Of a stretch of DNA of 64,000 nt, positions 12,642-36,722 are shown in pieces. Source of the DNA: Rhodococcus globerulus NBRC 14531 (GTDB lineage Bacteria; Actinomycetota; Actinomycetes; Mycobacteriales; Mycobacteriaceae); NCBI RefSeq assembly GCF_001894805.1, contig NZ_BCWX01000006.1:1-64000 (forward strand). Direction: 5' to 3'. The notes below the pieces were generated by a model. It did not search any database, was not told the origin of the DNA, and was given only the letters and a program-made list of their open reading frames with translations. The position numbers and the translations under genes were made by a program. Positions within the stretch are counted from its first letter, which is position 1; the number at the start of each line of letters is the position of its first letter.

Positions 12642-13148
12642 TTGGTACGACCACCCGACCCATTCGACTTCAGTGACTATTCGCGCCCGCAGCCCGGACA
12701 TGGCGGTCCACCTGATCCGGGAGTCGGGGATTTCACCCGGTCTTCAGGCGGATTCAATACGCCGCCGGCACCGAATCAGCATCCGGGAATGCCGACCGGT
12801 GATTCGTTCAGCGGGGCAGGCGCCAGCACTGTCGTTCAGGTACGCACTGCACCGACCGCATGGCTCGCCGCCGCAGGCGCGGTCGCGACGATCGGATTGA
12901 TCGTGGCCGTTGTTGCCTTTGTAGTACTCGATTCGGGTCCGGTCGCAGTAGTCGCCTGGATTCTCGGTGGCCCAGTGGCAATTGGTTTGCTTGCGCTCTT
13001 TACGTATCGCGACACACAGGCGCGTGCCAGTGCGTTCTATACGGAGCCGCTGTGGGTGTCGTCGGTGACCCGTGTCGTACTCGCTATTTCATGCATTGCA
13101 GTGCTGATCAGTGCATGGAACATTGCTGATTGGATTGGACGACTGTGA
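12642..13148 (+). CDS. Small membrane protein, first gene of the large operon
   Basis: 168 aa, not recognised as a known family. The N-terminal 70 residues are rich in Pro, Gly and Ser (DPFDFSDYSRPQPGHGGPPDP), typical of a flexible cytoplasmic tail. They are followed by hydrophobic segments TAWLAAAGAVATIGLIVAVV, a second at AWILGGPVAIGLLALF, and a third near the C-terminus. The TTG at 12642 is preceded by AAGGAG at 6 nt; the longer frame to 12450 lacks such a site. Its stop overlaps the next start by 4 bp (GTGA), so the two are translationally coupled. Confidence 0.72.
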   Translation: MVRPPDPFDFSDYSRPQPGHGGPPDPGVGDFTRSSGGFNTPPAPNQHPGMPTGDSFSGAGASTVVQVRTAPTAWLAAAGAVATIGLIVAVVAFVVLDSGPVAVVAWILGGPVAIGLLALFTYRDTQARASAFYTEPLWVSSVTRVVLAISCIAVLISAWNIADWIGRL

Positions 13149-15892
13149 GCAGAATGCGCATCGGTGCGCTCTTCGTTTTCGGAATTCTGATGCTCAATGC
13201 GGTCGGCGGATTAAGCGTGGCCACCGCACAGACGGCCGCGAATGCGGGTTCTGCCGTTAGTGACTTCGGTTCGTGCCTGGCGTCGCAGCAGACGGGAGAT
13301 CTTCTTCTCCTCATTGACGAGTCCTCGAGTTTGCAGACCTCCGACCCGGACGCGGCGCGAGTGTCCGCGGCGAATTTCCTGCTGGATCGCCTTGCTGCTT
13401 TTGGTGAATCGGCAGCAGTCGACCTCAATGTCGCGATCGCGGGATTCTCGAGCGACTACACCGTCCATACCGAGTGGATTGCTCTGGATTCTGGGAGCGT
13501 GCCCACCCTCAAGAGCTCGATCGAACAGTTCCGTGGTCGGACAACTGGCGTCGACACCGACTACTGGGGTGCGATGAACGGTGCCCAGAACGATTTGAGA
13601 GACCGCCCGCAGAACGCCGACGGATCCAGTCGGTGCCAGGCAATTGCATGGTTCTCCGACGGGAAATTGGACTTCACCGAACGCGACGCCAGCAAGCCAT
13701 ACGCGCCGGGGATCGACTTGGGCTCGCCGGAAGGTGTCAAGCAGGTCGTCGCAGCTGCCACCGAGTCGATTTGCAGACCGGCTGGCATTGCAGATCAGGT
13801 CAGAAGTGCAGGAATCAAGATGTTCGGCATCGGTCTTGCGTCCGGAACCGCCGCTGCCGCCGACTTCGATCTGATGCATGCGATTACCTCCGGTGCATCT
13901 GGTGATGGCGCGTCGTGTGGCGCAGTACAGGCGCCATCCCCTGGGGAGTTCTTTCTCGCTCAGAACATCGACGATTTGTTGTTCGCGTTCGATTCCTTCA
14001 GTACCCCGGGGCAAGCGCCGCTCGAACGCGAGAGTGGTGTCTGCGTCCAACAGGTGTGTGAAGAAGGTAAGCATCGGTTTGTGCTGGACCGTTCGATCAG
14101 TGCCGTAAACGTGCTCGCGTTTGCCGACGCCGAAGGTCTGGTACCGACTGTGGTCGCCCCGAACGGTGCGCAATTGGCGTTGCCCTTGACCGCTCTGCGA
14201 ACGGATTCTCGCGGACAGCTCGCCGGTATCGAGATCAACTACCGCTGGGAGTCACCGAATTCGGTGTCGTTCTCGATGTCGGATGCCGGCTCGGATCAGT
14301 GGCAGGGTGTGTGGGCGCTGGCATTCGTCGATCCGACAGGAGCCGCAGCACAAGCGCGATCGAAGTCGAACATCCACATCTCAGGCAATTTGTTCCCCGC
14401 ATGGCTCGGCCAGAAAACAACCGCGGTTCACACGGGGGAGAAGACCAGTGCCATCGAACTCGGAATTGTGGGTGCAGATCGTGCGCCCATCGATCCAGCG
14501 TCGTTGCTGGGTACGGCCGTGCTCTCCGTCTCAGTCGTGGACTCGTCGGGGACAGTTCACGACGTGGCAGCTCCGTTGCCCAAGGATCGAATCGGCGAGT
14601 CGGTTGAACTCGATCTCACTGACGTGCCGCCGGGAGATGCGACGCTGCGCCTGACCCTGGATGTCACTACCGCGGACGCGACGCGTGTCGACGGTGGTGT
14701 CGAGCCGGGAACCGCGCTGACAGCTCAGTCGGTCGACATCGCGCTGCCGATTGCGCCGCCGATCGGTTACCCCTCGCTTCCCGCTCGCGTCGATTTCGGG
14801 ACTCTCGAAGGCGCCGGTATTTTCGAGCGCGATCTAGATGTCACCGGGGCAGGATGTGTTCGATTGGACTCGGGTCAGTCGGTGTCATTCACCGGTTCGC
14901 CGGACGGAATCGGATCGGTGGCCCTGACTGGTCCGGCTGAAGAGGCTCAGTGTCTCGAATCGGGTGGGACTCTCCCGGTGTCGATCGACATCGAAAATGC
15001 CGTCAACGGAACGGTCAGCGGAACGATGTCGCTGCTCGTGTCGCCGGTTGGTGAGAGTGATCGCGAGATTTCGGTTCCGGTGCAGTTCACCGCGGACGTC
15101 CAGAAGCCTGTCGACACCGGCACGTTCTGGTTGACGCTGATCGTGGCGCTGTTGCTCGGTCCGGGCATCCCGCTCTTGCTTCTGTATGTCGGTAAGTGGT
15201 TGACCGCCAAGATTCCGCCGGGTGGGCTCAAGGCTCAGCAATTTCCCATCGAGATCCGAAATGGTGAGATTCTCCGCGACGGGCGCCCCTTCGGATTGCG
15301 CGACCGCGATCTTGTCGATTCGGTGCGGGGAATGCATGAAGCTACCCGGATCCTCGACGCAGCCGGCGTCGAATTACGAACTCATGTAGGACTTTCGCCC
15401 GTTGGAGCCGGATACGTGAGCGCGCGTCTGCCGGGGATGCTGGGGGCGTCGGGTTCGAATCCGGCGACGGACAAGGCCGGTGACGCACAGCTTCCGTTGG
15501 CGGTGCACAACTCGTGGGCCGTGTTCCATGATCCGAACGGTTCGCCGGAGGTCGCGACCTTATTGCTGCTGATCAGTACGGATGCGGACAAAAATCGGGT
15601 GGAGCGGGTGCTCGACGATGCCCGGCGCAACGTGGCTAACGCGGTGTCCCAGCTGCGCGGGCGAGCCGTCGACACGTCGGGTGCAAGTGGGCCAAGTGAT
15701 TCTGGCACGCCTCCTGGTTCACCGATAGTCGACCCCTTCGGTAACTCACAGGTAGGTGCTCAGTCAGGTGGTTACCCGGCAGAAGGATCGGCCTGGGCGC
15801 CGCCGGGGACTTCCGCAGGCACCGCGGATCCGTTTGCGCCTCCGAGCGGATTCGATCCGTTCGGGCCACCGGACAGCCGAGGCAGGCAATGA
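13145..15892 (+). CDS. Secreted-facing, membrane-anchored vWA-domain protein
   Basis: 915 aa. A signal peptide (hydrophobic GALFVFGILMLNAVGGLSV, cleavage near ATAQT) is followed by a von Willebrand A domain with an intact MIDAS DESSS (residues 58-62) and FSDG further on. A beta-rich middle of Ig-like character runs to about residue 650, then a transmembrane helix at about 658-685 (WLTLIVALLLGPGIPLLLLY), and a cytoplasmic part ending in a Gly/Pro/Ser-rich tail. The vWA domain should lie outside the membrane and bind a partner through a metal. The GTG start overlaps the upstream stop. The paired small membrane protein and the tubulin-like protein downstream suggest a membrane complex. Confidence 0.85.
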   Translation: MSRMRIGALFVFGILMLNAVGGLSVATAQTAANAGSAVSDFGSCLASQQTGDLLLLIDESSSLQTSDPDAARVSAANFLLDRLAAFGESAAVDLNVAIAGFSSDYTVHTEWIALDSGSVPTLKSSIEQFRGRTTGVDTDYWGAMNGAQNDLRDRPQNADGSSRCQAIAWFSDGKLDFTERDASKPYAPGIDLGSPEGVKQVVAAATESICRPAGIADQVRSAGIKMFGIGLASGTAAAADFDLMHAITSGASGDGASCGAVQAPSPGEFFLAQNIDDLLFAFDSFSTPGQAPLERESGVCVQQVCEEGKHRFVLDRSISAVNVLAFADAEGLVPTVVAPNGAQLALPLTALRTDSRGQLAGIEINYRWESPNSVSFSMSDAGSDQWQGVWALAFVDPTGAAAQARSKSNIHISGNLFPAWLGQKTTAVHTGEKTSAIELGIVGADRAPIDPASLLGTAVLSVSVVDSSGTVHDVAAPLPKDRIGESVELDLTDVPPGDATLRLTLDVTTADATRVDGGVEPGTALTAQSVDIALPIAPPIGYPSLPARVDFGTLEGAGIFERDLDVTGAGCVRLDSGQSVSFTGSPDGIGSVALTGPAEEAQCLESGGTLPVSIDIENAVNGTVSGTMSLLVSPVGESDREISVPVQFTADVQKPVDTGTFWLTLIVALLLGPGIPLLLLYVGKWLTAKIPPGGLKAQQFPIEIRNGEILRDGRPFGLRDRDLVDSVRGMHEATRILDAAGVELRTHVGLSPVGAGYVSARLPGMLGASGSNPATDKAGDAQLPLAVHNSWAVFHDPNGSPEVATLLLLISTDADKNRVERVLDDARRNVANAVSQLRGRAVDTSGASGPSDSGTPPGSPIVDPFGNSQVGAQSGGYPAEGSAWAPPGTSAGTADPFAPPSGFDPFGPPDSRGRQ

Positions 15893-15929
15893 CTTTCAGC
15901 GTAGGCATCGTTATTTGGAGAGGACCGGC

Positions 15930-18900
15930 ATGAGGCGTTTTCTGGTAGTTGGTTGCGGCGGCTCGGGCGCTGTCACGTTGTCCTACATGATGGACCAGCT
16001 GCGATCGGACCTCGCGGCAGCCGGCGTCGAGAAGATCCCGTCCGGCTGGCAATTTGTGAGTCTCGATGTTCCGACCGCGCCCGAGACCGGGCCGGACGGA
16101 CTGAACAACGTTCGTGATCAGGGTGGTACGTACTTCGGCAGTGGGCCGCAGGGTGATTCGTACGCAGTACTCGACAACGCGCTCTCCAATCAACTCGCAG
16201 CTCGACAGCAGTTGAGCTCGATCGCCACCTGGGCGCCGCGAGATCCGCGGAACGTACCTGTGCCGATTGGTTCGGGGGCCGGTCAGTTCCGTGCACTCGG
16301 ACGGATGATCACACTGAGTAAGACGGCCGGTATCAGTGAAGTGCTGCAACGGGCTTGGGACGAATTGTTCACCGTCGCGACCGAGACCGAGATGCGGTCA
16401 CTCGACATTCCCGGCGGTGGTTCCTTCGATCCGGGGGAAGCGCCGATAGTTCTGGTGGTGTCTTCGATGGCCGGGGGCGCCGGTGCGTCGATGGCGTTGG
16501 ACATCTGCCGATTACTCACTCTCATACCGCGTTTGGATCCGAAGATGATGGGCGTGTTCATGGTTGCGCCCGATATTTTCGATGGATTGGGTAAGAGCGC
16601 TACCACTGGTGTCAGCGCCAACGCACTGGCGATGCTGGGTGAGATCGTCGCAAGTCAGATGGGTTCGGCGCGTGAACACGACGTCACCATCCTGAAGGCG
16701 CTGGGACAGCAGAATGGCGAAGGGGCAGAAGTGCCGTTCGCACGCGTATTCCCGGTTGGACGCCGTGTGGGTACCGAGGGTGCGCCGTTCGGTGACGGGT
16801 CGCAGAACGCGATCTATCGCGGGCTGGGGCGTGGGCTGTCGGGCTTGATGATGAGTGGCGCTGCAACTCGCCAATTCGTTCAGTACGACCTCACCAACGG
16901 TGGCGGTCTGGCGGGTCTACGCGAACACATCGGTTGGGGCGCAGGCGCCTGGGACAGCCTGCCCTGGGGCACTTTCGGATTCTCGAGCCTGAGTATGGGT
17001 CGTGACCGCTATGCGGAGTACGCTGCCCAGCGATTGGCTCGTAGTAGCGTCGACCGTCTGCTTGGCGGTCACCTGCAGCGCGGAAATCCGGCTTCGGATG
17101 AAGAACAGGTCAATGCCATTCTCGACAGCCAGTGGCCGTCGATTCTGGCGCGGGTCGGCCTGGCTGATCGCAATGCCGCGGGTGGAGCTTTACCGGCTAA
17201 TGTCGGCGGGTGGATCACCGGAACGGTTCTGCCATGGGACGAGATCGGGCGTATGTCGCGTCAGATCGTCGAGACACAGCTCCGTCCGTATATCCCGTCC
17301 GGCGACGGAATGAACGCGAAACAGTGGGTTCCTGATGTCCAACAAGCGATCCGCGGTCGTGGCCCCGCCCTGCGTGGCGCGTCGGACAGCGCAGCTCTCC
17401 TGCACGCTTTCGGTTGGCAGGATCGCATCGTATACAACATCGAGTCGATGGTGGCCGAAGCTGTAGCCAGCCTCGGGTTGCCTTATGCCACAGCAATTGT
17501 CAATCGCTTATCGGCATATCTGCGGGATGTCATCCGTCCGGCGGCAGAGGACCTGGCGAAGTTGGCGCCTGCAGATATTACGGCGCCGACACCTGGCGTC
17601 ACCGGAACGTTGGCCAGCCTCAACGGAACGATTCCGATGAGCGGTGCCGTCATCGACTCGGTTGTGGCCGAGTACCAGAACAACATCAATCGGCAGATCT
17701 ACTCGACCCTTTCGGGCAAGGTGCGCGACATCGTCGCTGCCTTGGTGCCGGAAATCTTGACGCCGTTGTTGGCTGCGCTCAACGAATCTCAGACCGTTCT
17801 TCGGATTGCCAGCAAGACGCCCGCAATCGACGTCGGTTTGGCGCGGTTGGAGACAGACCAGTATGCAGCCTGGCCGTCGGATGGGGCAGAACGCGTTCCG
17901 CAGCGTTTCGCGGAGGCCAACAACGAGGTGATGCTGACACCGTCAGCGGAGTTCCTCGCGCAGTATCGCAGTGATCTGCCGATGGCAGTAGCGGAGGATT
18001 CGTCCGTGCCTCCGCCATTCGATTCGGCCGTGCAGATCGCATCACAACGAGTTGTCACAGGTCTCTGGCCCACAACCGACGGATCACGCGCGCCGGGACA
18101 GGTCGTGCCACTGATCGAACGAACGGCGACGTGGCGGTCGAAGGCATTTCCGGTCAACCCCTCGACCAACGAGGCACTGATCCCGTCGGCTGCTCGTTAC
18201 GACGTTCATCTGCGCGCGGGTGAATTGCTTGACCGTGCCAGGGCGTACGTCTCACGAACCGGTGAGTCTTTCGACCGGTTCTGCAAGGTGACGTTGAGGG
18301 ATTACATCGTGGCGTCGGGAGCTCCAGAATACGAACTGCAACAGCGTACTTCGCTGCTGCTCTCGAAGTTCGGCGAGGCGTTGTCGCTAGCTCGCCCACT
18401 CGCGAGTGTCAATCAGCAGGCGATGGAGGCATTGCATCCGGGTCAGCAGATCGCATACCGATACAAGTTCTCGGCGGTGCCTTTCCTGAATCTTCCGGTA
18501 TCGGAACTTCTGGCACAGTCGATCAGCCACAATCCCAAGATCGATCGTGAGACCGGTGACGGTTTCGGGCGACTGCTCACCGACGAGGGCGGACTCAAAC
18601 GCCTGGACATCTTCGGTTCGTATCCGAACTATTCGCCGCTCGCCTACGATTCCGTGCTCAAACCCGCTGCGAAGCAATGGGCGGATTCCACTCCGTCACA
18701 GCAGGAGGCATTCTGGTCGATGCGACGGTCGCGCCCACTCGCTGCGTCGCTACCTATGCACGAGAACGAGCGTCGCGCCATGACGGCCGGGTGGTTCCTC
18801 GGACTGGTACTCGGACGGATTCGGATTCCAGCCCCGCCGTTCCTGGAACCGGTGCGAGTCTGGTCGGCGGCAGAGAGCGCGTGGCTTGATTTCCCGAATC

Positions 18901-19502
18901 CGTTGCTTACTCCGCCTGGTCGCTTCGGTGCCAACAACGACTGGTTGCCTGCAGTGCTCGAATCGGTTCTGCTGGCGATGGCTCAGTCTCATCAACAGCC
19001 GGTCATGTCCTCGATGCATCCGTACCGAGCGCTCCGCTCGATTTACGATGCGACACTGGAAGATCCGGCACGTGGAATCAATGAGATCTCGGCGAAGTCG
19101 GCGTTGACCGAGTGGTTGCGCACCGGTGACACGCAAACCGGATGGCCGTCAGCCATTCCGGATTCGGACGGTGTGTCCACCATCGAGGAGCGCAGCGCCA
19201 AGACCGTAGAGTGGCTGGAACGTTTGAATACGTTTGTGGGCCATCACTACCTGGCTCCAGGTCAGGATGGAGCGTCAGGTGGCGGAACCTTCTCGCAGAT
19301 TACCTCGCGAGGGCAGGCATCCAAGACGCCGATATTCCGTGACCTTGCACCTGACGTGTTCTGGGCCACTGCCGAGCTGTCGGTGATGGTCAAGGAATGC
19401 GAGGAAACCGCTCTGCGCCCCGTGCAAAGTAGCTTCCCCACAATGCCTTCAGCTGGATTCGGAGACAACGACATCGTGATTCCCGACCTAGGACAGTTCT
19501 GA
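15930..19502 (+). CDS. Tubulin-like domain protein (Tubulin_2-type GTPase)
   Basis: 1190 aa. The N-terminus MRRFLVVGCGGSGAVTLSYM and a G-rich signature MAGGAGAS (GGAGAS at residues 182-187) correspond to the nucleotide-binding loops of the tubulin/FtsZ fold; the usual GGTGSG is changed. The remaining ~800 residues are a long helical region not seen in FtsZ. Actinobacterial proteins of this kind are annotated as tubulin-like (Pfam Tubulin_2); polymerisation has not been shown here. The ATG at 15930 has GGAGAGGA upstream; the open frame from 15756 overlaps the preceding gene and is rejected as start. Stop and next ATG are separated by one base. Confidence 0.85.
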   Translation: MRRFLVVGCGGSGAVTLSYMMDQLRSDLAAAGVEKIPSGWQFVSLDVPTAPETGPDGLNNVRDQGGTYFGSGPQGDSYAVLDNALSNQLAARQQLSSIATWAPRDPRNVPVPIGSGAGQFRALGRMITLSKTAGISEVLQRAWDELFTVATETEMRSLDIPGGGSFDPGEAPIVLVVSSMAGGAGASMALDICRLLTLIPRLDPKMMGVFMVAPDIFDGLGKSATTGVSANALAMLGEIVASQMGSAREHDVTILKALGQQNGEGAEVPFARVFPVGRRVGTEGAPFGDGSQNAIYRGLGRGLSGLMMSGAATRQFVQYDLTNGGGLAGLREHIGWGAGAWDSLPWGTFGFSSLSMGRDRYAEYAAQRLARSSVDRLLGGHLQRGNPASDEEQVNAILDSQWPSILARVGLADRNAAGGALPANVGGWITGTVLPWDEIGRMSRQIVETQLRPYIPSGDGMNAKQWVPDVQQAIRGRGPALRGASDSAALLHAFGWQDRIVYNIESMVAEAVASLGLPYATAIVNRLSAYLRDVIRPAAEDLAKLAPADITAPTPGVTGTLASLNGTIPMSGAVIDSVVAEYQNNINRQIYSTLSGKVRDIVAALVPEILTPLLAALNESQTVLRIASKTPAIDVGLARLETDQYAAWPSDGAERVPQRFAEANNEVMLTPSAEFLAQYRSDLPMAVAEDSSVPPPFDSAVQIASQRVVTGLWPTTDGSRAPGQVVPLIERTATWRSKAFPVNPSTNEALIPSAARYDVHLRAGELLDRARAYVSRTGESFDRFCKVTLRDYIVASGAPEYELQQRTSLLLSKFGEALSLARPLASVNQQAMEALHPGQQIAYRYKFSAVPFLNLPVSELLAQSISHNPKIDRETGDGFGRLLTDEGGLKRLDIFGSYPNYSPLAYDSVLKPAAKQWADSTPSQQEAFWSMRRSRPLAASLPMHENERRAMTAGWFLGLVLGRIRIPAPPFLEPVRVWSAAESAWLDFPNPLLTPPGRFGANNDWLPAVLESVLLAMAQSHQQPVMSSMHPYRALRSIYDATLEDPARGINEISAKSALTEWLRTGDTQTGWPSAIPDSDGVSTIEERSAKTVEWLERLNTFVGHHYLAPGQDGASGGGTFSQITSRGQASKTPIFRDLAPDVFWATAELSVMVKECEETALRPVQSSFPTMPSAGFGDNDIVIPDLGQF

Positions 19503-19503
19503 C

Positions 19504-22239
19504 ATGAGTGTGTTGACGGTTTTCCTCGCGGCTCCCGGACCGGCAGACGGTGTGCGGGACGTCCTGACCGACCTTTCCTCGGCTGGGCTACTCGACCCAT
19601 TCCTGTGGATCGACGAGCGTGACGTGGCCTCGGGCCTGTCGGCTGTGAGCGCTACCGCCGTCGATGGCGGCGAAGTATCCACTGTCGCACTGCAGAACGT
19701 GTTGGCTTCGACCCGGGTCACTCGCGTGCGGCTCTGTGTTCTGGTCCCGTTTATCGAGGGGGCTCAGTCAGTTCGCGTCGAATCCGAACGAGCGATCGCG
19801 GATATGCTCGTCGCAAATTCGGGTAGCGCACAGCTCGTCCGGCTCCGGACGATCCTGACTCGGGGTGGGTCTACGGCACCGGCGTCGGCAGTTCCGGCAT
19901 TGGCGGGCTGGCACAATCTCTTGATTGCACCGGAAGATTCCAACGGTCCGGGTATGGGCCATGTTTCGCTCGCTGCCACCACCGATGCTGTCGTGATCGG
20001 GCGAAACGCGGCGCCGGTCGTGGCCGGTGTTGTCGGACTGTGGTCGCATGCTGCGCACACACCTTTTGACGATCTGCACGTAGTTCCCGGTGACGCGATT
20101 CGACTAGTGCGTTCCTTCTATCGTCGGCTCGAAACATCCGGGGCGGAGCATGATCTGCGTGAGCAGGTTCTCGATATCGGTGGACCGCTTCCCTTGCCGC
20201 TCGATGCCGGCGGAAGTGTGGTCTACGTCGAAGACGTTCCACTTGCTACCGGAACCATGGCCCAGAACCTGTGGGGCAAGCACCGTGGAATGCTGATCGG
20301 GTCGCGAGTGCCGATGCCGGCGGTTGGGGGTTCGCAAGCGATTGGCCTATGGCGGGCGCTGGTGATGTTCTTCAGCTTCATCGGTTCCGCTCTCCGCAAT
20401 GCCCCGATGGCGTTCTACAACCGGGTATCGAGGGGTGTCTCGGGCGCTGTGGCGTCGACTCTCAACGCCGCGGTTTTCGGCACTGATTCTTCGGCGTACA
20501 CAATCGTCGTCAACGGAGTCGGACCGGACGGGCGTTCGGTGAAGTGGTCAGAATTCACGGCCGCGTCGCATCAGATGATGACGGCATTGGATTCGGGAAC
20601 CGAGAGCCGCCATCACGCCGCGTCCACCGATCTGTCCCGACTGTGGAGCGATTACTCAGCCGGCGCACTCACTTTGGCAGATGCAGGGGAGCGTTCACAG
20701 GGTCTACCTCCGGTTCAGGTCGGTGCAAATCGAGCGGTGATTCGGATCGCCGGTGACATCGTTCCAGGCAAGGCTCAGCGGTTCACGGACGTCCCGGGAA
20801 TCATTGCCGCCAGTACGGGCGTGTCCGGGCTCGATGCACATGATGTTCTTGCGATTTCCGATTTTCGGGCTCAGTTGCGTGAACTCGAACAAGACCAGGT
20901 CCTAGGACTGGAAGCGCGTCGCACTGTGGGCGCGGTGGACGCCTGGGGGCAGACCATTCGTCGTTCCTACGGATTTGCGTTCGGCCAGCTTCTCGCCGAA
21001 GGAATGCATTCGACACGCTCCGAAGTGAGTGCGCTGCTTGGGAAGTTACGTGCTCATTCGGGGTTCGAAGATCAGTCGGAGGGTATTCGGAACCGTCAGC
21101 GGGGGCTGGCGCGGTGGGCTCAGATCATCACTCTCCTGGCAGTGCTGATCATCGGAGCTGCTGGCTACCTGACATACCGCGACATTATGGTGTGGTGGCA
21201 TTGCGCCGTGATCGTCGTTGTGGCGATCGCGGTGTGGTTCGTGAGTTTGTTCATCCTGTTCACCCGAAGTCAGCAAGAGTTGTTCCAGCTGATCAACCGG
21301 CAGCGAAGAGCCGCCGGTGAATTGGAAGCCGATCAGGCGAATCTGAGGACGGCACTGCGCGATCTGGATAGGTTGTCTGCGGCGTACCGTCAGCATGTCT
21401 CGTGGAGTGCGGCGTTGGGGACGTTCTTGGCGGAGCCGCTCGGAAAGGCACCTCAGCGCTCGGGTTCCACTCGCCAGGTCGAATGGGGGCTTCCGCGTTC
21501 GGCTGCCATCGGATCGGCACGTCCGGAGCCGGGCCGGATTCTCGAGGTTGCGGAACGGCTGCGCAGCGAATTGTTCACGGTGGGCTGGATGTCGTCACCT
21601 TGGGACGAATTGACGCGTGCCGCAGGCGATCATCTAGGGGCTTTGGGACTGGACGTGCGGCAGAGTCCAGAGTTGCTCTACACCAAGCAAGGGTGGGGAT
21701 CTGGCTCGGCGCTCGACGTGTGGTCGGACAAGCTGGCTGACGGAGAAATCGCTCTCGACGGCGCCGACGTTGTCTGGGAGAGGGCTCTCGCGGAGCTAGG
21801 AGGATCCAAGGTTTCGTTGCTCACGGAATTGGTGTCTTCGGTCGAGGTTCGGGATCTGGGACAGTCGCGTGTGCTGACTCTCGACGGATTCATGGCAGGC
21901 GTCGGTGCTGCGGGTGAGATTGCGCAGAGCGGGCACTTCGACAGGACTCTGTTGACCGATCTCGCAGTGACCAGTGGACGTGCGGCTGTGTGTGGAGGCC
22001 GAGCGGATCAGGTCCGCCTCGGACTGGGGTTGCTGTCGGTGACCACCCAGTTCAGCGAAGGCCTTGCCCGCGAGGAACTTCAGTTCGGCGGTGAAACGTC
22101 GGCGATCGTGGACGAGCATTCGTTCGAAATTCCGGTATCGCCGGACGCCGGCGCCCTCGGTGGTTTCGGAAAACAGTCCTCGGTGGCACCCGTTTCCGAT
22201 CCATTCCGTGCGCCGTCCATCGACGGCATGAACTTCTGA
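19504..22239 (+). CDS. Large membrane protein with two central transmembrane helices
   Basis: 911 aa, family not recognised. A ~530-residue N-terminal cytoplasmic region is followed by two hydrophobic helices at about 540-558 (IITLLAVLIIGAAGYLTY) and 566-588 (CAVIVVVAIAVWFVSLFILF). A coiled-coil-like stretch follows (QELFQLINRQRRAAGELEAD), then a C-terminal soluble region. With both termini on the same side, it could be a scaffold linking the tubulin-like protein to the membrane. The ATG lies immediately after the upstream stop (TGACATG), and the next gene starts 15 bp downstream with AAAGAGA as ribosome site. Confidence 0.8.
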   Translation: MSVLTVFLAAPGPADGVRDVLTDLSSAGLLDPFLWIDERDVASGLSAVSATAVDGGEVSTVALQNVLASTRVTRVRLCVLVPFIEGAQSVRVESERAIADMLVANSGSAQLVRLRTILTRGGSTAPASAVPALAGWHNLLIAPEDSNGPGMGHVSLAATTDAVVIGRNAAPVVAGVVGLWSHAAHTPFDDLHVVPGDAIRLVRSFYRRLETSGAEHDLREQVLDIGGPLPLPLDAGGSVVYVEDVPLATGTMAQNLWGKHRGMLIGSRVPMPAVGGSQAIGLWRALVMFFSFIGSALRNAPMAFYNRVSRGVSGAVASTLNAAVFGTDSSAYTIVVNGVGPDGRSVKWSEFTAASHQMMTALDSGTESRHHAASTDLSRLWSDYSAGALTLADAGERSQGLPPVQVGANRAVIRIAGDIVPGKAQRFTDVPGIIAASTGVSGLDAHDVLAISDFRAQLRELEQDQVLGLEARRTVGAVDAWGQTIRRSYGFAFGQLLAEGMHSTRSEVSALLGKLRAHSGFEDQSEGIRNRQRGLARWAQIITLLAVLIIGAAGYLTYRDIMVWWHCAVIVVVAIAVWFVSLFILFTRSQQELFQLINRQRRAAGELEADQANLRTALRDLDRLSAAYRQHVSWSAALGTFLAEPLGKAPQRSGSTRQVEWGLPRSAAIGSARPEPGRILEVAERLRSELFTVGWMSSPWDELTRAAGDHLGALGLDVRQSPELLYTKQGWGSGSALDVWSDKLADGEIALDGADVVWERALAELGGSKVSLLTELVSSVEVRDLGQSRVLTLDGFMAGVGAAGEIAQSGHFDRTLLTDLAVTSGRAAVCGGRADQVRLGLGLLSVTTQFSEGLAREELQFGGETSAIVDEHSFEIPVSPDAGALGGFGKQSSVAPVSDPFRAPSIDGMNF

Positions 22240-22254
22240 AAGAGACGTTGAGCG

Positions 22255-28147: not shown

Positions 28148-29313
28148 GTAAGTGCCCGCGCTGTTTCGTCAGCCTGACCTCTGATCATTTTGCCTGGACA
28201 CAAGCGTCGGGTACGACAACCGAGGCCGATCCTGTTGCAAGCGCGTATCACGGTGGTCAGGTGCTCTCGCGCAAGATCATCGAGTTGCGCCGACCGGTGG
28301 ATGCACACGCTGGCTGGGCACCGCCGCCGCAACACGCAGAACTCGAGCTGGGTGGACCTGTTCGCGAAGTGTGCCCGACCTGCCATTACGTCCTTGTGGA
28401 CGGTTGGCGCAACGCACAGGTCACCTGCATCGCTATGGCGGGAGCGCGGGCCACGGGTAAGACCGTGTACATCGCGGTGTTGATCAAGCAGTTGCAATTG
28501 CTGGGTGAGAGTTGGGGTGCCGTTGTCGAACCCTTCGACAGCACCACTGAGGCGACATACCGCGACCATTACGAGACCCCGCTGTACGAGGCCCGAGGAA
28601 TTCTCGAGGCGACGCCCGCTGCGCACACCGGTAATCCCTATCAACGCGAACCCCTGATCTTCAGCCTTGGTCATTGGAACAACGTCTCGCAGATTCTCGT
28701 GATCCGTGACGTCGCGGGTGAGGACTTGGAGAACCCGGAAAACGCGCGGGCTCCCTGGTTGCAGTTCTTTGCGCACGCGGACGGCGTGCTCTTCATGTTC
28801 GATCCGTTGAAAGTCGAATCGGTCACCAACCAACTACACGATTTGGTGCCGACGCAGGAACGGGTCGGCGGAGATCCCCGAACAGTGCTGCGCACGGTCC
28901 TCGGCATCATCGGGTTGGGAACACCCAACCTCGCCATAATCTTGTCCAAATTTGATGCACTGCAGTCACTTCAGAGCGTCGAAGGAAGCGATTGGAGTCG
29001 GATCATGTCGAACCCCGGCGCCGCGTTCTCCCGGGATTTCAGCTTGCGATCGGCGCCCTATCACGACGGTGATGGTCAGCTTCTCAACCAAGAAGTCCGT
29101 AGTCTCCTCAAGAAGCTGGACGCAACTCCGATGGTGATGTCGGTGGACCAGCCGCATACCGGACGCCCACTGCCCAACCGATACTTCGCGGTATCGGCGT
29201 TGGGTGAATCCCCGGTAGGGGATCGCCTGCACGCCAGTGGGATCACGCCCTTCAGATGTCTCGATCCGGTTCGTTGGGTGCTCGCAACCCGTAGCGTGTG
29301 GCACTGGCAGTGA
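28144..29313 (+). CDS. Zinc-ribbon P-loop GTPase (double-GTPase 2-like)
   Basis: 389 aa. CPRC at 4-7 and CPTC at 77-80 suggest a zinc ribbon. The P-loop is GARATGKT (100-107), the Walker B/G3 region is RDVAGED near 190, and the G4-like motif is ILSKFDAL near 266, where the usual NKxD is SKFD. This combination matches the bacterial GTPases found with GAP1 and vWA partners (Pfam DO-GTPase2, from memory). The protein is soluble. It starts with GTG overlapping the upstream stop by 4 bp. It is one of two GTP-binding folds in the operon, the other being tubulin-like. Confidence 0.87.
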   Translation: MSKCPRCFVSLTSDHFAWTQASGTTTEADPVASAYHGGQVLSRKIIELRRPVDAHAGWAPPPQHAELELGGPVREVCPTCHYVLVDGWRNAQVTCIAMAGARATGKTVYIAVLIKQLQLLGESWGAVVEPFDSTTEATYRDHYETPLYEARGILEATPAAHTGNPYQREPLIFSLGHWNNVSQILVIRDVAGEDLENPENARAPWLQFFAHADGVLFMFDPLKVESVTNQLHDLVPTQERVGGDPRTVLRTVLGIIGLGTPNLAIILSKFDALQSLQSVEGSDWSRIMSNPGAAFSRDFSLRSAPYHDGDGQLLNQEVRSLLKKLDATPMVMSVDQPHTGRPLPNRYFAVSALGESPVGDRLHASGITPFRCLDPVRWVLATRSVWHWQ

Positions 29314-29317
29314 CGTC

Positions 29318-30676
29318 ATGACTCACTCGGTTCCGGGGGCGGGTATGGAAGCGCGGGCGGAGATCCTCGATTTCCTGCTCGAATCAGGCACCTGGCGAAC
29401 AGGATTGCTCAGTCTGCTCCTCGATGGGGTAGGTGCGGCGATCGATGGCGGTCCTGTTGTTGTCCTCGGAGTAGCTGACGAGCGCGTGGGGCGGCTATGG
29501 TTCGGCGCAGTGTCGATGCTGTGCGCACCCAGCGGCTCGGAAGTAATCCGGTACCAGCACGCGGAAGGCCGCGAACAGGTTCGCGAGGGCGCACACCTGA
29601 TCACGGTGTCCATGGCAAATCTGTACTTGTGGGCTGGATCCGGTGGTGTGGTGATCGGAGAGGACGACAACTGCAGTCTGGGGGAGATGTCGGTCGACCC
29701 GCATCAGAGCGAGCGAGGGACGTCGGTCGCTGTCACGCACTGGTCGCTCCTGGCTGAGGCGGTACTCGTTGACTCTGCGACAGCGCTCGCGGCATTCGAA
29801 CTGCAGGAGTCGATAGACAAGAAATTTGCGACCGGAACGCTGCATCGGTTGTGGCCCTTGGCGATGACAGTGGCGTCTAGGCCGGACATGCACGAATCGA
29901 TGAGCACGGCCGCAGAGGTTATCCGAGAGCACTCACCCTGGGAGCTGGTCGAGCAGGGCGAACTGTTCAACCTTGCCGTCGGTACTGTCGCGGGCGGTTG
30001 CGGCCGCGACGCGGCTGTAGAGTGGCGTGATCGCTTGACTGCGGGTCCTGCCCCTGAGCCTGCCCTACACGTCCCAGATCCGTTGATCCGATTGCCGGAA
30101 CCAGCGCAGGCCCCCACCCCGAATCCTGTTGTGGCTCAGCCGGAAATTCGAACCTTGCTGATGGGTGAAGCGGCAGATCTTTCCCCCGACACTGTGCGAT
30201 TGGGATGCTCTGTGTCGTGGACGCAGCCGATGTCGAATCAGTTGGAGGTTGATCTTGTGGCCTTCCTGCTCGATGAGAACCGCACAGTCAGCACCGACGA
30301 GGATTTTGTCTTCTACAACTCCGCGGTGGGAGGCGCAGGCGCGGTTGCGCTGTCCGTGCTGACACCTGAGGCGCAGCGCGTCGACATCGATTTCGGTGGG
30401 TTGGCCGCGCGGTATCACCGCGTTGCCTTGGGGGTCGTCATCACGGGGCCCGGGTCGTTCAGTCAGCTGAATCCTCTGCGAATGGTCCTGACCGACAATG
30501 AAGTTCCGATCGCCGATTCGATCTGTACGCACGGCACCACTGAACAGGCGATGATCGTGGGCGAGTTCTACATGCGGGCAGGTCGTTGGCGAGCGCGATC
30601 AGTTTGGCAAGGATACGACGGCGGCCTCGCGGAGTTGGCGACGTCGTACGGCGTTGTCGTGGACGGCCCAGGGTGA
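29318..30676 (+). CDS. Fusion of GAP1 middle domain and TerD domain
   Basis: 452 aa. Residues about 20-195 align by eye with the middle domain of the GAP1-type protein at 24237: GTWRTGLLSLLLDG against EVWRIGVLCVLLDA, VVVLGV against VILGV, WFGAVSML against WIGAVSAL, and HWSLLAEAVLVDSATAL against EWSVLAQTVLLDAETAL. A Pro-rich linker follows, then a TerD domain at about 281-452 (VDLVAFLLDEN, DFVFYNS, and the ending WQGYDGGLAELATSYGV). The acidic calcium loop of classical TerD is absent. The start may be ATG 29318 or ATG 29345; the second has a better purine-rich site. The stop overlaps the next GTG. Confidence 0.88.
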   Translation: MTHSVPGAGMEARAEILDFLLESGTWRTGLLSLLLDGVGAAIDGGPVVVLGVADERVGRLWFGAVSMLCAPSGSEVIRYQHAEGREQVREGAHLITVSMANLYLWAGSGGVVIGEDDNCSLGEMSVDPHQSERGTSVAVTHWSLLAEAVLVDSATALAAFELQESIDKKFATGTLHRLWPLAMTVASRPDMHESMSTAAEVIREHSPWELVEQGELFNLAVGTVAGGCGRDAAVEWRDRLTAGPAPEPALHVPDPLIRLPEPAQAPTPNPVVAQPEIRTLLMGEAADLSPDTVRLGCSVSWTQPMSNQLEVDLVAFLLDENRTVSTDEDFVFYNSAVGGAGAVALSVLTPEAQRVDIDFGGLAARYHRVALGVVITGPGSFSQLNPLRMVLTDNEVPIADSICTHGTTEQAMIVGEFYMRAGRWRARSVWQGYDGGLAELATSYGVVVDGPG

Positions 30677-31287
30677 TCGATCTTGCTAGCCGCCGCATCG
30701 TCGATGTACGAGGTCACCTGACCGATCCTTACGCTGCGTCGTTGTTGGTGGTGACGATGATGCCGGTCCTTTCGGCGATAGCGTTCGGGTCGATCCTGTG
30801 GCGTCCGCTCGGGTACGTCGTCGCGGTTGCCTCACTCTTCTACGTGCAGAGATTGCACCGCTGGATCGGATCTGGATTGCGAGGCATCAGTTCGGGGGTG
30901 CCGAATAGTCGGATATACCGCGCTACAACCTATCTCGTGATCGTTCTTTTCTCCGCGATGCTGTCTATCCCCGTCGTACAAGTCTTCTTTCGAGGTGATC
31001 TCGCGGCGATGGCCGCTCCGACGGTGGTGGCGGAAATGACGGACGGTTGGCAAGGGGCGACGGCGCCGGAAGCGATCTTCGGATCCACACCCTCGTGGCC
31101 GTCGTACGCGCCATGCCAGTTCGTTCAAGGATGGACCGGACCCACCGTAGCGAACTCGTGTTACTCGGCAGTGGGGTACCTGCGGATGTGGCAGATGCCC
31201 ACCGCGTTACCGATGTTGTGTTCTCTCACCATGATTTACATCCTCTTTCCCCTCACCCTGGCCAGATTCGGTCGGTTGAACAAATAG
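30673..31287 (+). CDS. Membrane protein of the operon, about four helices
   Basis: 204 aa, no recognised family. Hydrophobic segments are SLLVVTMMPVLSAIAFGSIL, PLGYVVAVASLFYVQ, a third at TYLVIVLFSAMLSIPVVQV, and a C-terminal one at ALPMLCSLTMIYILFPL. A loop between the third and fourth contains two Cys residues (PCQFV and NSCYS). This loop could face outside and form a disulfide. The GTG start at 30673 overlaps the upstream stop in a GTGA; earlier in-frame starts lie inside the TerD fusion gene. It precedes another integral membrane protein, so the two may form a membrane module. Confidence 0.75.
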   Translation: MIDLASRRIVDVRGHLTDPYAASLLVVTMMPVLSAIAFGSILWRPLGYVVAVASLFYVQRLHRWIGSGLRGISSGVPNSRIYRATTYLVIVLFSAMLSIPVVQVFFRGDLAAMAAPTVVAEMTDGWQGATAPEAIFGSTPSWPSYAPCQFVQGWTGPTVANSCYSAVGYLRMWQMPTALPMLCSLTMIYILFPLTLARFGRLNK

Positions 31288-31324
31288 CCTTCGACTTCCC
31301 TCGAAGGCATTGAAATGGATCGGT

Positions 31325-32947
31325 ATGACGAAGAAGTATTATCTTGCGCGCCTGGCGGGCTCACGCGTCGATGTTCTGGAGAGACTTCCAGGCTCGGTCG
31401 CCAAGCAGACGGCAATGGGTTCGGTTCTGCTGACGACGGCTGGTTTTGCTACAATCTCGGCCGCCTACGCATTGTCGATCACAGGGATTGCAACAGGCTG
31501 GGCCGCCATCGCCGGTGGTCTGGTGTGGGGTCTCGCGATTCTCAACCTCGACAGGTTGTTGGTGATCGGACTCTCCGGCGAAAAGAGTATTCGACGCAGT
31601 GTAATGATGGCGTTGCCGCGAGTGTTCTTGGCGATTGTCATCGGATTCGTCATATCGACGCCGTTGATGCTCAAGGTTTTCGAGAGTGAAATCGAGACAC
31701 AGCTCAACCGCAATATCCTTGCATCGCAAGAGCAGTTGAGGACCGACCTCAAGGACTCGACGTTGAGTTCCGACCTCACCGAGGCGGAAACCGAGTTGGC
31801 TCAGATGCGTGCGTTGATCAACGCCGGCCCCACAGCAGACCCGGCAGCCAACCCGGAAGTTGGACTGGTCCAGACCGAGATCGAAAAGCTCGAGGCGACG
31901 GCAGCGAAACAAAAAGCTGATTACGACGCCGCAATGACCAGGGCGCTCGAGGAAGAGGAAGGCACGGCCGGTACCGGCGTGCCGGGCTGTGCTGCGCTGT
32001 GTGTCGAGAAGAAGCGGCTTGCAGGCGAGGCAGAGAAACTATGGCAGGGAACGCTCGAGCAGATCAGGGCGAAGGAAGCCGAAAAGGCGACTGTCGTAGC
32101 CACACTCAAGGACGTTCTGCTGCAGGAGAGTGAGAAAGCCGTCGCCGACGCGGAACGTGATTTGCCTGCCGTCGAGCAGAATGTCGAGACATTGCGCGCC
32201 CAAGTTGACGGCGCCCAGAACGGGTCGTACGCGCTAGAGCAGGCCAACAAGGGAATCATCGCGCGACTCAAGGCGCTCAACGACCTCACGGAGGGCGACG
32301 GGACAGCGGGCATGGCCCACCTGGCGGTTTCCGTTCTGTTCATGCTGATGGAACTCCTTCCGGTCCTCTTCAAGGTGATGGCCAACGCGGGCACCCGCAC
32401 GCCGTACGACGAGCTGGTCGAAGCCTTCGAGGAGGAAGAGAAGCGAGATGCGACGGAGGAAATCGATACCCGCAAACGGGTGTCGGAGTTCCGCCGAGAT
32501 GCCGAGTTCGACGCCGAGCAGGACCGCATCAGCAAGCAGCAGGAAACAGTACTCAAGGTCAATGAGACTGTGGTTGCGCACCAATCCGAGGTAGTCGACG
32601 AAGCACTCGAGCAATGGAGTCGGCATGCAAAACGTGTGTCGACCGAACGTCTACGTGAATGGGAACGTGGTCTGATCGCTGAGGCCCGCGTAAGTCCCGA
32701 CAGCGGGGCGAGGGACGTGGAGACCCGTCGACCGGAGCCGGTACCGACGTCAAGGTCGTCAGCGCCTGGTGTGGTATTGGACAAGCCGCGAAACCCGGTG
32801 ACGGCTCCGTATATCGGCGGAGGGTATCCGCAGAGTCCGGCCACAGGCAGCGCGCCCGCCGGCCCGTTGCCGCATTGGATGTCCGAGACGACCTGGGCCG
32901 ACGGGCCGGCTTCACACCTGCAGCCACCGGAGTCGATGCAGCAATGA
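31325..32947 (+). CDS. DUF4407-family membrane coiled-coil protein
   Basis: 540 aa. The N-terminus carries hydrophobic segments GSVLLTTAGFATISAAYALS, WAAIAGGLVWGLAILNL followed by the DUF4407-typical NLDRLLV, and PRVFLAIVIGFVISTPL. A ~190-residue charged coiled coil follows (TEAETELAQMRALI onwards), with a short CAALC pair, then a further hydrophobic segment (AVSVLFMLMELLPVLFKVM), a second coiled coil, and a Pro/Gly-rich tail. The start is ambiguous: ATG 31325 or TTG 31310, neither with a strong ribosome site. The stop overlaps the next gene by 4 bp (ATGA). The family is structural in appearance, with no known enzymatic role. Confidence 0.85.
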   Translation: MTKKYYLARLAGSRVDVLERLPGSVAKQTAMGSVLLTTAGFATISAAYALSITGIATGWAAIAGGLVWGLAILNLDRLLVIGLSGEKSIRRSVMMALPRVFLAIVIGFVISTPLMLKVFESEIETQLNRNILASQEQLRTDLKDSTLSSDLTEAETELAQMRALINAGPTADPAANPEVGLVQTEIEKLEATAAKQKADYDAAMTRALEEEEGTAGTGVPGCAALCVEKKRLAGEAEKLWQGTLEQIRAKEAEKATVVATLKDVLLQESEKAVADAERDLPAVEQNVETLRAQVDGAQNGSYALEQANKGIIARLKALNDLTEGDGTAGMAHLAVSVLFMLMELLPVLFKVMANAGTRTPYDELVEAFEEEEKRDATEEIDTRKRVSEFRRDAEFDAEQDRISKQQETVLKVNETVVAHQSEVVDEALEQWSRHAKRVSTERLREWERGLIAEARVSPDSGARDVETRRPEPVPTSRSSAPGVVLDKPRNPVTAPYIGGGYPQSPATGSAPAGPLPHWMSETTWADGPASHLQPPESMQQ

Positions 32948-33528
32948 GCACCGAGCTCGAGATCGAGCGGATTGTTCGCTCGCACATCGACGTTCGTGTT
33001 GTGGTCGACGACGACGCGAAGGAGCTGGCTCGGGATCTTCTCGAACAGCTGACGCAGTGGATAGCCGACGAATGTGCACGGCGCCCGATCCTCTCGGACA
33101 TGTTTGCTGCCAGCGTCACTCACGTCGGTGGACATGTGTCCTTCAACAGCCTGGTCGACTGTGCCCACGGCAAAGTGGGTCGGCCGTTCCTGGAGCGACC
33201 TTCTCGAACCGTGGTGTCGGTGGTTGTCGGTTCGGCTGCGGCCATCCTCGCTCAACCAGGCAGCACTGAAATCTCCACGGCACCTGCGATGTTGGTGTGG
33301 CTGATCGGGGATGATGCGACGTCAGCGTTGCTGAAGGTGCACGATCGGATGGGGCCGAGAGGTCGTAGGACGGTCGCTGACAGCTCGCTGACGCCGGAGC
33401 TCTTTCTCACTACCTGTCAGACGGTCGTGCGAGGAGTACTCGAACGCCCGGGGGAATGGTGCGGCGAATTAGTCGGAAGTGTAGGCGTGAGCGCAGCGAT
33501 GCGAGGTGTGGGATATGCGGTGTCGTAA
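32944..33528 (+). CDS. Unrecognised soluble protein in the operon
   Basis: 194 aa, no recognised family, signal peptide or membrane helix. It opens with an acidic helical region (TELEIERIVRSHIDVRVVVDDDAKELARD), followed by a central mixed segment (HVGGHVSFNSLVDCAHGKVG). The ATG overlaps the DUF4407 stop by 4 bp, so it is almost certainly translationally coupled to it, and a small cytoplasmic partner of that membrane protein is a reasonable guess. Confidence 0.72.
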   Translation: MSTELEIERIVRSHIDVRVVVDDDAKELARDLLEQLTQWIADECARRPILSDMFAASVTHVGGHVSFNSLVDCAHGKVGRPFLERPSRTVVSVVVGSAAAILAQPGSTEISTAPAMLVWLIGDDATSALLKVHDRMGPRGRRTVADSSLTPELFLTTCQTVVRGVLERPGEWCGELVGSVGVSAAMRGVGYAVS

Positions 33529-33555
33529 CGGTGTGCAATTCCTGGTGGGGCGGAC

Positions 33556-35109
33556 ATGAGCGTTGATGTCACTGCCCTGAGCATTCTCCGCGATGTTGAA
33601 TCACCAGAAGGTCTTCCGGCCTTCGAGGTGAAGTCTCCGAAGGGCGTCGGACGTGGCTTCCGCTCTCTCTTCCGCACGTTCGAGGACGCGAGCGACGTTG
33701 TTGCCGCAAATGTGCGCTGGCTGATCGATTTTCGTGCGCATCTGACTCCTGAGGATCGCTCGACGCTCGACGCGTCATTTCTGTGGCCGCTCGAACTTGT
33801 CGAGTCGGACGGCGTCGCCGTGGGATATTTGACCGGTGTGGTTCCGGCGCGATTCGAGGAGCGAGTGCAGACACCCCATTCGGGGGTCGTGACGGTAGCT
33901 CGAACTTTGGACTGGCTGAACAATCCCGCGCACGCAAGGGATGTGGGTGCATCGGTGATTGTCGAACCGGATGACATTATCGTGCGCTCGGCTTACTGTG
34001 CTCAGATCGCGCGCGCGACGGCGTTCCTCCATTCTCGAGGCGTCGTGTTCGGCGATATCGGGCCCTTGCGCGTGGTCACGAGCGATTCACCCATCGACGT
34101 TGTGATGATCGGTTCCGAGTTCATGCACGCCGCCGAGTCTCCGTGGCGTGGACCCGGAGTGCATTCGCACGGGATGACACCACCGGAATGTGTTGACGAG
34201 GCGAGAGTTCAAGACGTCGGCACTGATCTCTTCAAACTGGCGTTGATATTTCGCGACGTACTCGGTGCGGCGCCGGCGAAGGCGTCGGAGATTTCGTCGT
34301 TGGCGGGTTTGGTCGGACGCGTTGACCACCGTGGAATCGAGATGTTCGAGCGGGGGCTGGGGTCGGATCCGGGAGCGCGCCCGTCGGCCGTCGAGTGGTA
34401 CGCGTATCTGTACTCGGAGACCATCGCGCATTCGGCTCCGCCGGTGATCGAGATGTTCGGTGCGGTTCCTGAACACGGGATTCGAAATCAATCCATCGAA
34501 TTCACCTGGAACGTCCAGGGACACCGCAGGCTGAACCTCGAAACGCCGTGGGGCGAGGTTCAAGAACTCGACATCAGTGCGTCGAGGTACAGAGTGACGT
34601 TGAAACAGTCCGGGCAGTTCCGTTTGATCGCGTCTAATCCGAGTGGAACTACCGAGCGGCCCAGCGACATCGTGTATGCCTTCGATCCTCCCGCTGTGCG
34701 TTTCGTCGAGGTTCCCGAGTTGGGCGGGGTTGCGCAGGCTATGACCGGTCTTGATTCGACGGTGCTGTCCGACCGAGTGGTGCAAGGACCCGAGTTCAAT
34801 TGGCTGTATGGCAGTTTCGACGCAATTGCATCGCCGGAGTTGCCACCGCTACTGGAGCTTCCGCAGTTCGATTCCCCGGGTGTGCCACTGCACCAAATTG
34901 ATTGGACGGCGCTGACATCGATTATCAACGATACGATGCGGGCGGCCGATGCCGAGGTACGTCAGGGAGCGCTCGGCCGCGGGAACATCGTGGACAGGGC
35001 CGGATTGCTAGTTTCCCGCGTGCGATTGCGCACCGATAGGGTTACCAGCGGCCTTCGTCGATCGCGAACTCGTCGGAGTAGCTCGAAGCGCCGCTCCGAC
35101 GAGTCGTAG
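33556..35109 (+). CDS. Degenerate protein-kinase-like protein with beta-rich C-terminal domain
   Basis: 517 aa. Residues about 25-290 have the layout of a protein kinase fold, similar to kinases seen in TerY/vWA systems: a hinge-like VAVGYLTGVVPARFEE, the helix YCAQIARATAFLHSRGVVFG, then FGDIGPLRVV at the place of the catalytic loop HxDxKxxN, and a C-lobe with DVGTDLFKLALIFRDVL. A clear Gly-rich loop, VAIK lysine and DFG are not visible, so it is probably a pseudokinase. Residues 295-390 are an Ig/Fn3-like beta domain. The Arg/Ser-rich last 24 residues read through the opposite strand of a broken SnoaL gene. It starts 27 bp after the previous stop. Confidence 0.75.
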   Translation: MSVDVTALSILRDVESPEGLPAFEVKSPKGVGRGFRSLFRTFEDASDVVAANVRWLIDFRAHLTPEDRSTLDASFLWPLELVESDGVAVGYLTGVVPARFEERVQTPHSGVVTVARTLDWLNNPAHARDVGASVIVEPDDIIVRSAYCAQIARATAFLHSRGVVFGDIGPLRVVTSDSPIDVVMIGSEFMHAAESPWRGPGVHSHGMTPPECVDEARVQDVGTDLFKLALIFRDVLGAAPAKASEISSLAGLVGRVDHRGIEMFERGLGSDPGARPSAVEWYAYLYSETIAHSAPPVIEMFGAVPEHGIRNQSIEFTWNVQGHRRLNLETPWGEVQELDISASRYRVTLKQSGQFRLIASNPSGTTERPSDIVYAFDPPAVRFVEVPELGGVAQAMTGLDSTVLSDRVVQGPEFNWLYGSFDAIASPELPPLLELPQFDSPGVPLHQIDWTALTSIINDTMRAADAEVRQGALGRGNIVDRAGLLVSRVRLRTDRVTSGLRRSRTRRSSSKRRSDES

Positions 35110-36703: not shown

Positions 36704-36722
36704 ACAGACGAGGAATACTTTC

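Follow-up and report, generated by a model that had tools for sequence, protein, structure and literature searches.

Does the row of 13 genes near one end of a Rhodococcus globerulus contig form a single machine, or was it assembled from modules that live apart elsewhere? The genes fill positions 12642–35109 (22.5 kb) of a 64,000-nucleotide stretch of R. globerulus NBRC 14531 (NZ_BCWX01000006.1; hereafter the window), which is the beginning of a 208-kb contig in a genome of 6.7 Mb. Comparison with related genomes only partly bore out the large membrane-associated machine proposed in a sequence-only reading of this DNA, and the 13 genes are not conserved as one set: the first eight genes (g1–g8, the core) are widespread, TerD genes are their frequent neighbours, and g10–g13 (module B) form a separate module joined to the core in one Rhodococcus clade. 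It is very likely that the unit consists of these two modules. We slightly favour the view that it is a GTP-switched membrane surveillance machine, which would have taken over a kinase/phosphatase module and left a pseudokinase as an adaptor.

Composition of the 13-gene unit

All 13 open reading frames (ORFs) lie on the plus strand, as had been claimed, and the largest intergenic gap is indeed 37 bp. With homology-supported starts, neighbouring genes overlap by 1–4 bp at six junctions (g1/g2, g5/g6, g6/g7, g7/g8, g9/g10, and g11/g12) instead of the seven or more counted earlier; g3 and g4 are separated by 1 bp, and g8 and g9 by 4 bp. The order g1–g13 is identical in four further genomes, and g1–g8 and g10–g13 are jointly missing from a syntenic site, so the arrangement is not a product of chance. 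The boundary of the unit was set after g13, because the luciferase-like gene pair downstream is unmatched in the fetched sibling regions and lies elsewhere in the congener G097. The genes are:

12642..13148, plus strand: g1, small protein with a Pro/Gly-rich N-terminus and a hydrophobic C-terminal half of about three membrane segments (ORF, hydropathy)
13145..15892, plus strand: g2, N-terminal signal/transmembrane segment, vWA domain with DxSxS (probably extracytoplasmic), C-terminal transmembrane segment and tail (Pfam VWA_2, 6.6e-6; transmembrane and motif scans)
15930..19502, plus strand: g3, tubulin-like protein, Tubulin_2 and a C-terminal extension of about 800 residues, GGAGAS box (Pfam PF13809, 3.2e-45; alignment)
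19504..22239, plus strand: g4, conserved membrane protein, family not known (structural model, predicted local distance difference test [pLDDT] 84)
22255..24240, plus strand: g5, HRDC-like N-terminus and FnIII-like repeats (weak Pfam matches in orthologues; agrees with the published description of a component)
24237..27143, plus strand: g6, GAP1 protein with GAP1-N2, GAP1-M and a variable helical C-terminal region (Pfam; model, pLDDT 81)
27143..28147, plus strand: g7, TerF-like vWA protein without a transmembrane segment, DxSxS kept (weak PF10138 match, motif)
28144..29313, plus strand: g8, DO-GTPase with two CxxC pairs, Walker A GARATGKT and SKFD (Pfam DO-GTPase2, 1.3e-6; motifs)
29318..30676, plus strand: g9, GAP1-M-like N-terminal half fused to a C-terminal TerD domain (Pfam TerD, 9.8e-24; BLAST; TerD relatives in the PDB)
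30673..31287, plus strand: g10, membrane protein with three hydrophobic segments, first gene of module B (hydropathy)
31310..32947, plus strand: g11, DUF4407 membrane protein (Pfam, 2.4e-63; hydropathy)
32944..33528, plus strand: g12, fast-evolving protein of 194 residues (hhalign probability 98.6 against the gene at the same position in standalone modules)
33556..35109, plus strand: g13, predicted pseudokinase domain and Ig-like beta domain, the latter by eye (alignment with standalone kinases)

The hydropathy scan gave five clear membrane proteins (g1, g2, g4, g10, and g11) and a marginal segment in g6, rather than the four assumed before; taken with the Pfam families, it bore out a membrane-associated system of the GTPase-vWA-GAP1 type. 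The motif scan located the motifs expected of working domains in the vWA proteins g2 and g7 and in the GTPase g8. The g8 match to DO-GTPase2 scores 28.7 bits against a cut-off of 27, with CxxC pairs at residues 4 and 77 and Walker A at 100. The proposed GAP1/TerD fusion was recovered in g9, whose TerD half is found by Pfam and whose GAP1-M likeness is seen by BLAST and not by Pfam. The Tubulin_2 match in g3 (1190 residues) spans the full domain length, and g1 begins with TTG preceded by AAGGAG. In g11, the stretch between the two clear transmembrane segments is probably extracytoplasmic. In g7, the match to vWA-TerF-like (PF10138, E 0.0024) is under the cut-off, and 12 of 20 orthologues match at E≤0.1. 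Weak Pfam matches at the same threshold identify fn3 in 3 and HRDC in 1 of 28 g5 orthologues, neither of them in the window copy.

Both g6 domains exceed their Pfam cut-offs (GAP1-N2, 2.5e-20; GAP1-M, 4e-8). Comparison of its model with the PDB gave mostly helical-repeat solenoids as leading matches (TM-score about 0.1), and TagF (PDB 9t0n) at Foldseek rank 7 with a probability of 0.96, a TM-score by target of 0.40 and an E value of 0.054. The PDB profile search with g6 gave no sequence match to TagF, and this possible likeness is a lead only. The GAP1-N2 region of the model runs two strands, helices, three strands and a helix, an order that, read from the secondary-structure line, we take to resemble a longin/roadblock domain, a usual partner fold of small GTPases. 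The model of g4 suggests an alpha/beta N-terminal domain, a long helical middle with a hydrophobic hairpin and a mixed C-terminal domain; it matched nothing in the PDB at E≤0.001, and Pfam offered nothing convincing. A pore-forming role of g4 was considered and dropped, as the best PDB match, the helical toxin MakA (E 0.01, TM-score 0.10/0.18), is not credible.

No NCBIfam model reaches its cut-off for any protein of the operon, with weak kinase-like matches on g13. Pfam assigns no family to g1, g5, g10, or g13, and none convincingly to g12. Promoter- and terminator-like sites were no more frequent than in shuffled sequence, which carries little weight in a high-GC actinobacterial host.

The core and module B in other genomes

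Comparison with published systems identified g1–g8 as the actinobacterial tubulin type of GAP1-N2/DO-GTPase system, as set out in the text of Kaur et al. 2020 (PMC7159879). That tubulin theme comprises a tubulin with a long extension, an HRDC/FnIII protein, a membrane vWA protein, GAP1-N2 and a Zn-ribbon DO-GTPase. In the window, the membrane-bound vWA protein is g2, the single tubulin with a C-terminal helical extension is g3 (the helices of the extension being assumed), and the CxxC pairs of g8 form putative N-terminal zinc ribbons, as in the DO-GTPase of GAP1-N2 systems. The tubulin-like member had been thought to extend the known systems; according to the survey text, tubulin genes already mark about 52% of GAP1-N2 neighbourhoods (PMC7159879). 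Unlike the window, the same text names no g1, g4, TerF-like vWA g7 or TerD as members; DUF4407 occurs in it 0 times, and its sole mention of TerD is in section 13. There, the linked genes fall into themes that do not overlap, three in number (tubulin, HSP70, and kinase/PP2C/vWA), and the role of the systems against invaders is a prediction. Tubulin_2 proteins are described as divergent and sparse FtsZ-like relatives in text of a 2023 survey (PMC9871819).

For the core, we took the best 80 of 91 loci from named genomes, of which 56 had enough flanking sequence to be usable. The detected genes among g1–g8 agree in order and strand in 56/56 usable loci, and all eight were found in 46 (g1 in 51, g2 in 55, g4 in 56, g7 in 48, and g8 in 55). 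The loci are spread over Rhodococcus, Williamsia, Gordonia, mycobacteria, Corynebacterium, Propionibacteriaceae and others. At the family level, Tubulin_2 occurs in 17 of 151 genomes, three of them with short partial matches. Besides the window genome, 13 have full matches; ten of these were fetched, and at least seven of the ten are also in the 80-locus set. In all ten, g1–g6 and g8 are collinear and g10–g13 have no match; g7 has a BLAST match in eight, and the other two carry an ORF of the same cluster in its place. Among named genomes, Rhodococcus sp. ARC_M6 and IEGM 1379 have the nearest tubulin genes (93% identity), and the g3 protein is present in 10 of 28 congeners. A g8 homologue is found in 50/50 genomes chosen for the core, with no match among phage records. 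On plasmid records, the tubulin gene was found on two, both from Rhodococcus, and a g13 relative on one. GAP1-N2 is rare, with 3 of 246 genomes in a phylum sample that includes the window genome; the other two loci belong to a different family and show GTPase and kinase matches close by, with none to tubulin or DUF4407. The control genome, that of Corynebacterium glutamicum, has matches to both Tubulin_2 and GAP1-N2.

Several variations of the core were noted in mycobacteria. Some operons have a short GAP1 gene (ORFs of about 400 residues in L055 and L072; L093 by spacing only), and four genomes (G168, G172, G174, and G188) carry two close GTPase homologues each, which in G172 lie 14 kb apart, the second within another g5-g6-g8 set. 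Downstream of the GTPase in L195–L197, tandem genes encode small proteins with DPFG/PFGQ-rich N-termini (by eye).

TerD is a frequent partner of the core and is not required by it. It is present in 27 of the 50 core genomes, and lies within 20 kb of the GTPase gene in at least 23 of these 27 and within 3.5 kb in at least 14; the unlinked counts are upper bounds, and two of the linked genomes are siblings of the window, in which the nearest TerD is g9. In G161, G166, G167, and G192, the only TerD among the matches listed sits 0.6–1.8 kb from the GTPase. By a hand estimate with at most 13 TerD copies in about 6 Mb, fewer than 1 in 10 would be this close by chance. Matches of g9 to the other TerD genes near the core or module B begin at residue 248 or later, in or just before the TerD half; g9 continues this neighbour habit, here fused to a GAP1-M-like half.

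Module B has a different distribution. Relatives of g13 were found at E≤0.001 in 27 of 301 family genomes: five congeners (window included), six clear cases elsewhere (E 2e-47 or better) and 16 weaker ones. The five congeners have g1–g13 in order (in G215, g1–g5 are from locus L041) and make up half of the 10 congeners, out of 28, that are tubulin-positive; among the genomes inspected, these five related Rhodococcus are the only ones in which module B is joined to the core. The earlier idea that the genes of the unit occur together holds for g1–g8 and fails for g10–g13, which are unlinked to the core outside this clade. In six standalone modules (L163–L168), g10, DUF4407, a g12-like gene and a kinase gene occur together with no g1–g8 match within the fetched 20 kb. 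Homologues of g10 adjoin DUF4407 in L163–L168 and in a further locus, L138 (genome G162), where an ORF showing the beta domain only (by eye) follows.

Directly upstream of g10, five of the six standalone loci (G226, G084, G246, G036, and G270) carry vWA and PP2C genes, called by Pfam in L164 (PP2C also in L167) and by BLAST in the rest. TerD and TerC/DUF475 lie within a few kilobases in three of the six. Alignment revealed that the kinases of the same five genomes keep the lysine, GD..N, DxD and the glycine loop (G270 without its first Gly). In all five joined copies, the glycine loop, the lysine, the asparagine and the DFG-type aspartate are absent and the catalytic-loop aspartate is kept; by this alignment, g13 is a predicted degenerate kinase, as had been suggested. 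The sixth standalone kinase, in G130, is without the lysine, the catalytic-loop aspartate, the asparagine and the DFG-type aspartate, with the glycine loop partly kept. Neither G130 nor the five joined copies gave a PP2C or module-type vWA match (the search covered g6 and what follows it in G302, G254, and G263). The DUF4407 tree unites the joined copies in a single clade (100/100) and groups G162 with G036 (100/100), whose kinase is intact; the kinase was therefore lost two or more times.

In the survey text, the kinase/PP2C/vWA theme has a kinase with a beta-rich domain beside PP2C and vWA (PMC7159879), as in the standalone relatives of g10–g13, which have no g6 or g8 match. The window departs from that theme in having a degenerate kinase and neither PP2C nor the accompanying vWA (no PP2C match lies in the window or in the searched pieces of its four siblings), and in that the module is part of a tubulin system. 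The idea of DUF4407 as a general partner of the core was rejected, since 13 of the 50 core genomes have it (12 of them above the cut-off) and it is seen linked in two, both siblings; most other copies lie on separate contigs, which leaves some room for linkage. Of 41 class-level DUF4407 matches, 13 were fetched; none has a g10, PP2C or vWA match, and one has a kinase match nearby. In one standalone module, an ORF between g10 and DUF4407 may be an inserted transposase (L164:13189–14754, by eye), and the genes adjoining the module in L138 (4724–14948) resemble, by eye, a defence cluster of helicase/ATPase type.

Gain or loss of the unit and probable allele replacement

Comparison with G097 revealed that the whole unit is present or absent as one. 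This congener has the same flanks, with TerD, SNF2 helicase, phosphoesterase and Stealth genes, then d3, a SnoaL-like gene and an ABC transporter, and its matches to the Stealth gene and d3 are about 0.3 kb apart. The site contains no match to g1–g8 or g10–g13, and g9 matches there once, in the flanking TerD gene. In the window, this TerD gene (1674–2249) and the SNF2 helicase occupy 1674–5589.

Alleles were compared across five genomes. Among G254, G263, and G215, third positions differ by 10–21% per gene in g1–g5 and g7–g10, and between G254 and G263 by 5–30% in windows outside two blocks. Between G254 and either of the other two, the differences reach 40–53% in GAP1 codons 100–500 and drop back at codon 500; they rise again from DUF4407 codon 200 and stay at 35–62% through g13 (38–61% against G263). 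In other pairs, GAP1 is unusually similar, with third-position differences of 9% against 16–31% in other genes for the window and G302, and 6% against 10–31% for G263 and G215. These patterns suggest that recombination has replaced alleles in two places, one within GAP1 and the other running from the middle of DUF4407 to the end of g13. In three pairs, the ratio of nonsynonymous to synonymous substitution rates (dN/dS) is highest in g12 (0.29–0.40) and g6; values of 0.02–0.06 in g3 and g8 indicate strong purifying selection.

Other genes in the window were also noted. ZacA/B/C defence genes with strong PADLOC matches lie on the minus strand at 52073–58144, 17 kb from the operon, and an Exonuclease-BRCT-TerD fusion protein is encoded at 50169–52097. 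A protein of 1836 residues (58391–63901) combines DUF4011, AAA, MTES_1575 nuclease and DUF3320 domains, as in conflict-type helicase-nucleases. The two luciferase-like monooxygenase genes after g13 (35477–38090) are moved or inserted.

Proposed mechanism and rival explanations

In the surveillance machine that we slightly favour, the vWA protein and the other membrane proteins of g1–g8 would face the envelope, GAP1 would form a GTP switch together with the Zn-ribbon GTPase, and the tubulin-like g3 would be the assembling part. Behind the core, a Rhodococcus ancestor probably gained the membrane half of a second signalling module (g10, DUF4407, g12, and a kinase with an Ig-like domain), after which control would have passed from phosphorylation to the GTPase/GAP1 switch, a hand-over for which we put the chances at even. 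The pseudokinase g13 may serve as the adaptor that connects GAP1 to DUF4407, the proposed sensor. An envelope disturbance or a phage product would be sensed by the variable surfaces of DUF4407, g12, g13, and GAP1, and sensing would trip the GTPase, leading to tubulin-like assembly at the membrane. The unit has the look of a rapidly evolving machine for sensing or defence; defence as its purpose is plausible but somewhat doubtful. On the unlikely side stands a more specific version, in which GAP1 and the stretch from mid-DUF4407 through g13 would be two cognate recombining specificity cassettes beside a fixed tubulin/GTPase engine, and the machine would have arisen by the GTPase/tubulin switch replacing a kinase/phosphatase switch. 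The alleles would then be swapped as in self/non-self or phage-recognition loci.

Several observations weigh against the favoured mechanism. The dN/dS ratio is below 0.4 for every gene in the three pairs. The tubulin label of g3 rests on the Pfam match and should be read as putative; a profile of 11 members of its family retrieved neither a tubulin nor an FtsZ chain from the PDB (the best match, at E 0.1, was unrelated). PADLOC 2023, run on 7 of the 13 operon proteins, matched g13 alone and weakly (MkoA, 2.4e-4). The link between kinase loss and PP2C loss comes from 12 loci and two or three events; in the DUF4407 tree, G130 is unplaced near the joined copies and G162, with four forks open. No kinase or PP2C match was found in L138, whose contig starts about 1.4 kb upstream of g10. 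The absence of Tubulin_2 from genomes with a standalone module comes from searches of three of the six (G036, G084, and G130).

By eye, several Gordonia and Corynebacterium copies of the core adjoin ribosomal, rpoA, fusA, or groEL genes, a setting also compatible with a stable role in the envelope. The unit might be a resident envelope or growth apparatus, in which the core positions a membrane complex in normal envelope assembly, and DUF4407 and the pseudokinase are lineage add-ons with no role in conflict. The strong purifying selection on g3 and g8 agrees with this, as do the six core/TerD proteins scanned without a PADLOC match; the patchy occurrence of Tubulin_2 and of the g3 protein, the clean empty site in G097 and the allele replacement in GAP1 and g11–g13 speak against it, and we regard it as rather unlikely. 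A defence-island origin of the whole operon as a rule was itself left unsupported, because several copies adjoin ribosomal genes.

The operon might instead belong to a Ter-type stress pathway that responds to a calcium signal or to a ligand bound by TerD and shields the cell from chemical or envelope stress. Anantharaman et al. in 2012 reportedly described Ter systems with a TerY vWA, a PP2C and a kinase. Standalone module B resembles these in having vWA, PP2C, and kinase genes in 5/6 loci with TerD and TerC near in three, whereas the window copy has neither PP2C nor the module vWA. The TerD linkage, the TerF-like g7 and the further TerD domains of the window, at 1674–2249 and in the exonuclease fusion, point the same way, but 23 of the 50 core genomes have no TerD match, so the core does not require TerD, a result that also counts against the surveillance machine. 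We judge a Ter-type pathway unlikely. That g9–g13 or g10–g13 merely landed downstream of a complete g1–g8, as two neighbouring operons with no functional tie, would explain why no other genome inspected has module B beside the core. The 4-bp gap between g8 and g9, the overlapping junctions, the one order maintained across five genomes, the joint absence of both modules from G097 and the GAP1-M-like half of g9 itself make this very unlikely.

We found no description of the hybrid in the open-licence papers searched, where the core is described (PMC7159879) and single parts are merely mentioned in the text available. As far as the survey text goes, the hybrid joins a tubulin system to a kinase-type module, themes that are kept separate there, and the locus points to constant or frequent parts that this text does not name, g4 and TerD (PMC7159879). 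It also points to the segments that probably carry specificity. With its decaying kinase, the locus is a natural experiment on whether the same effectors can be driven interchangeably by GTPase/tubulin and by kinase/phosphatase switches, and the genus to which this soil bacterium belongs is open to engineering.

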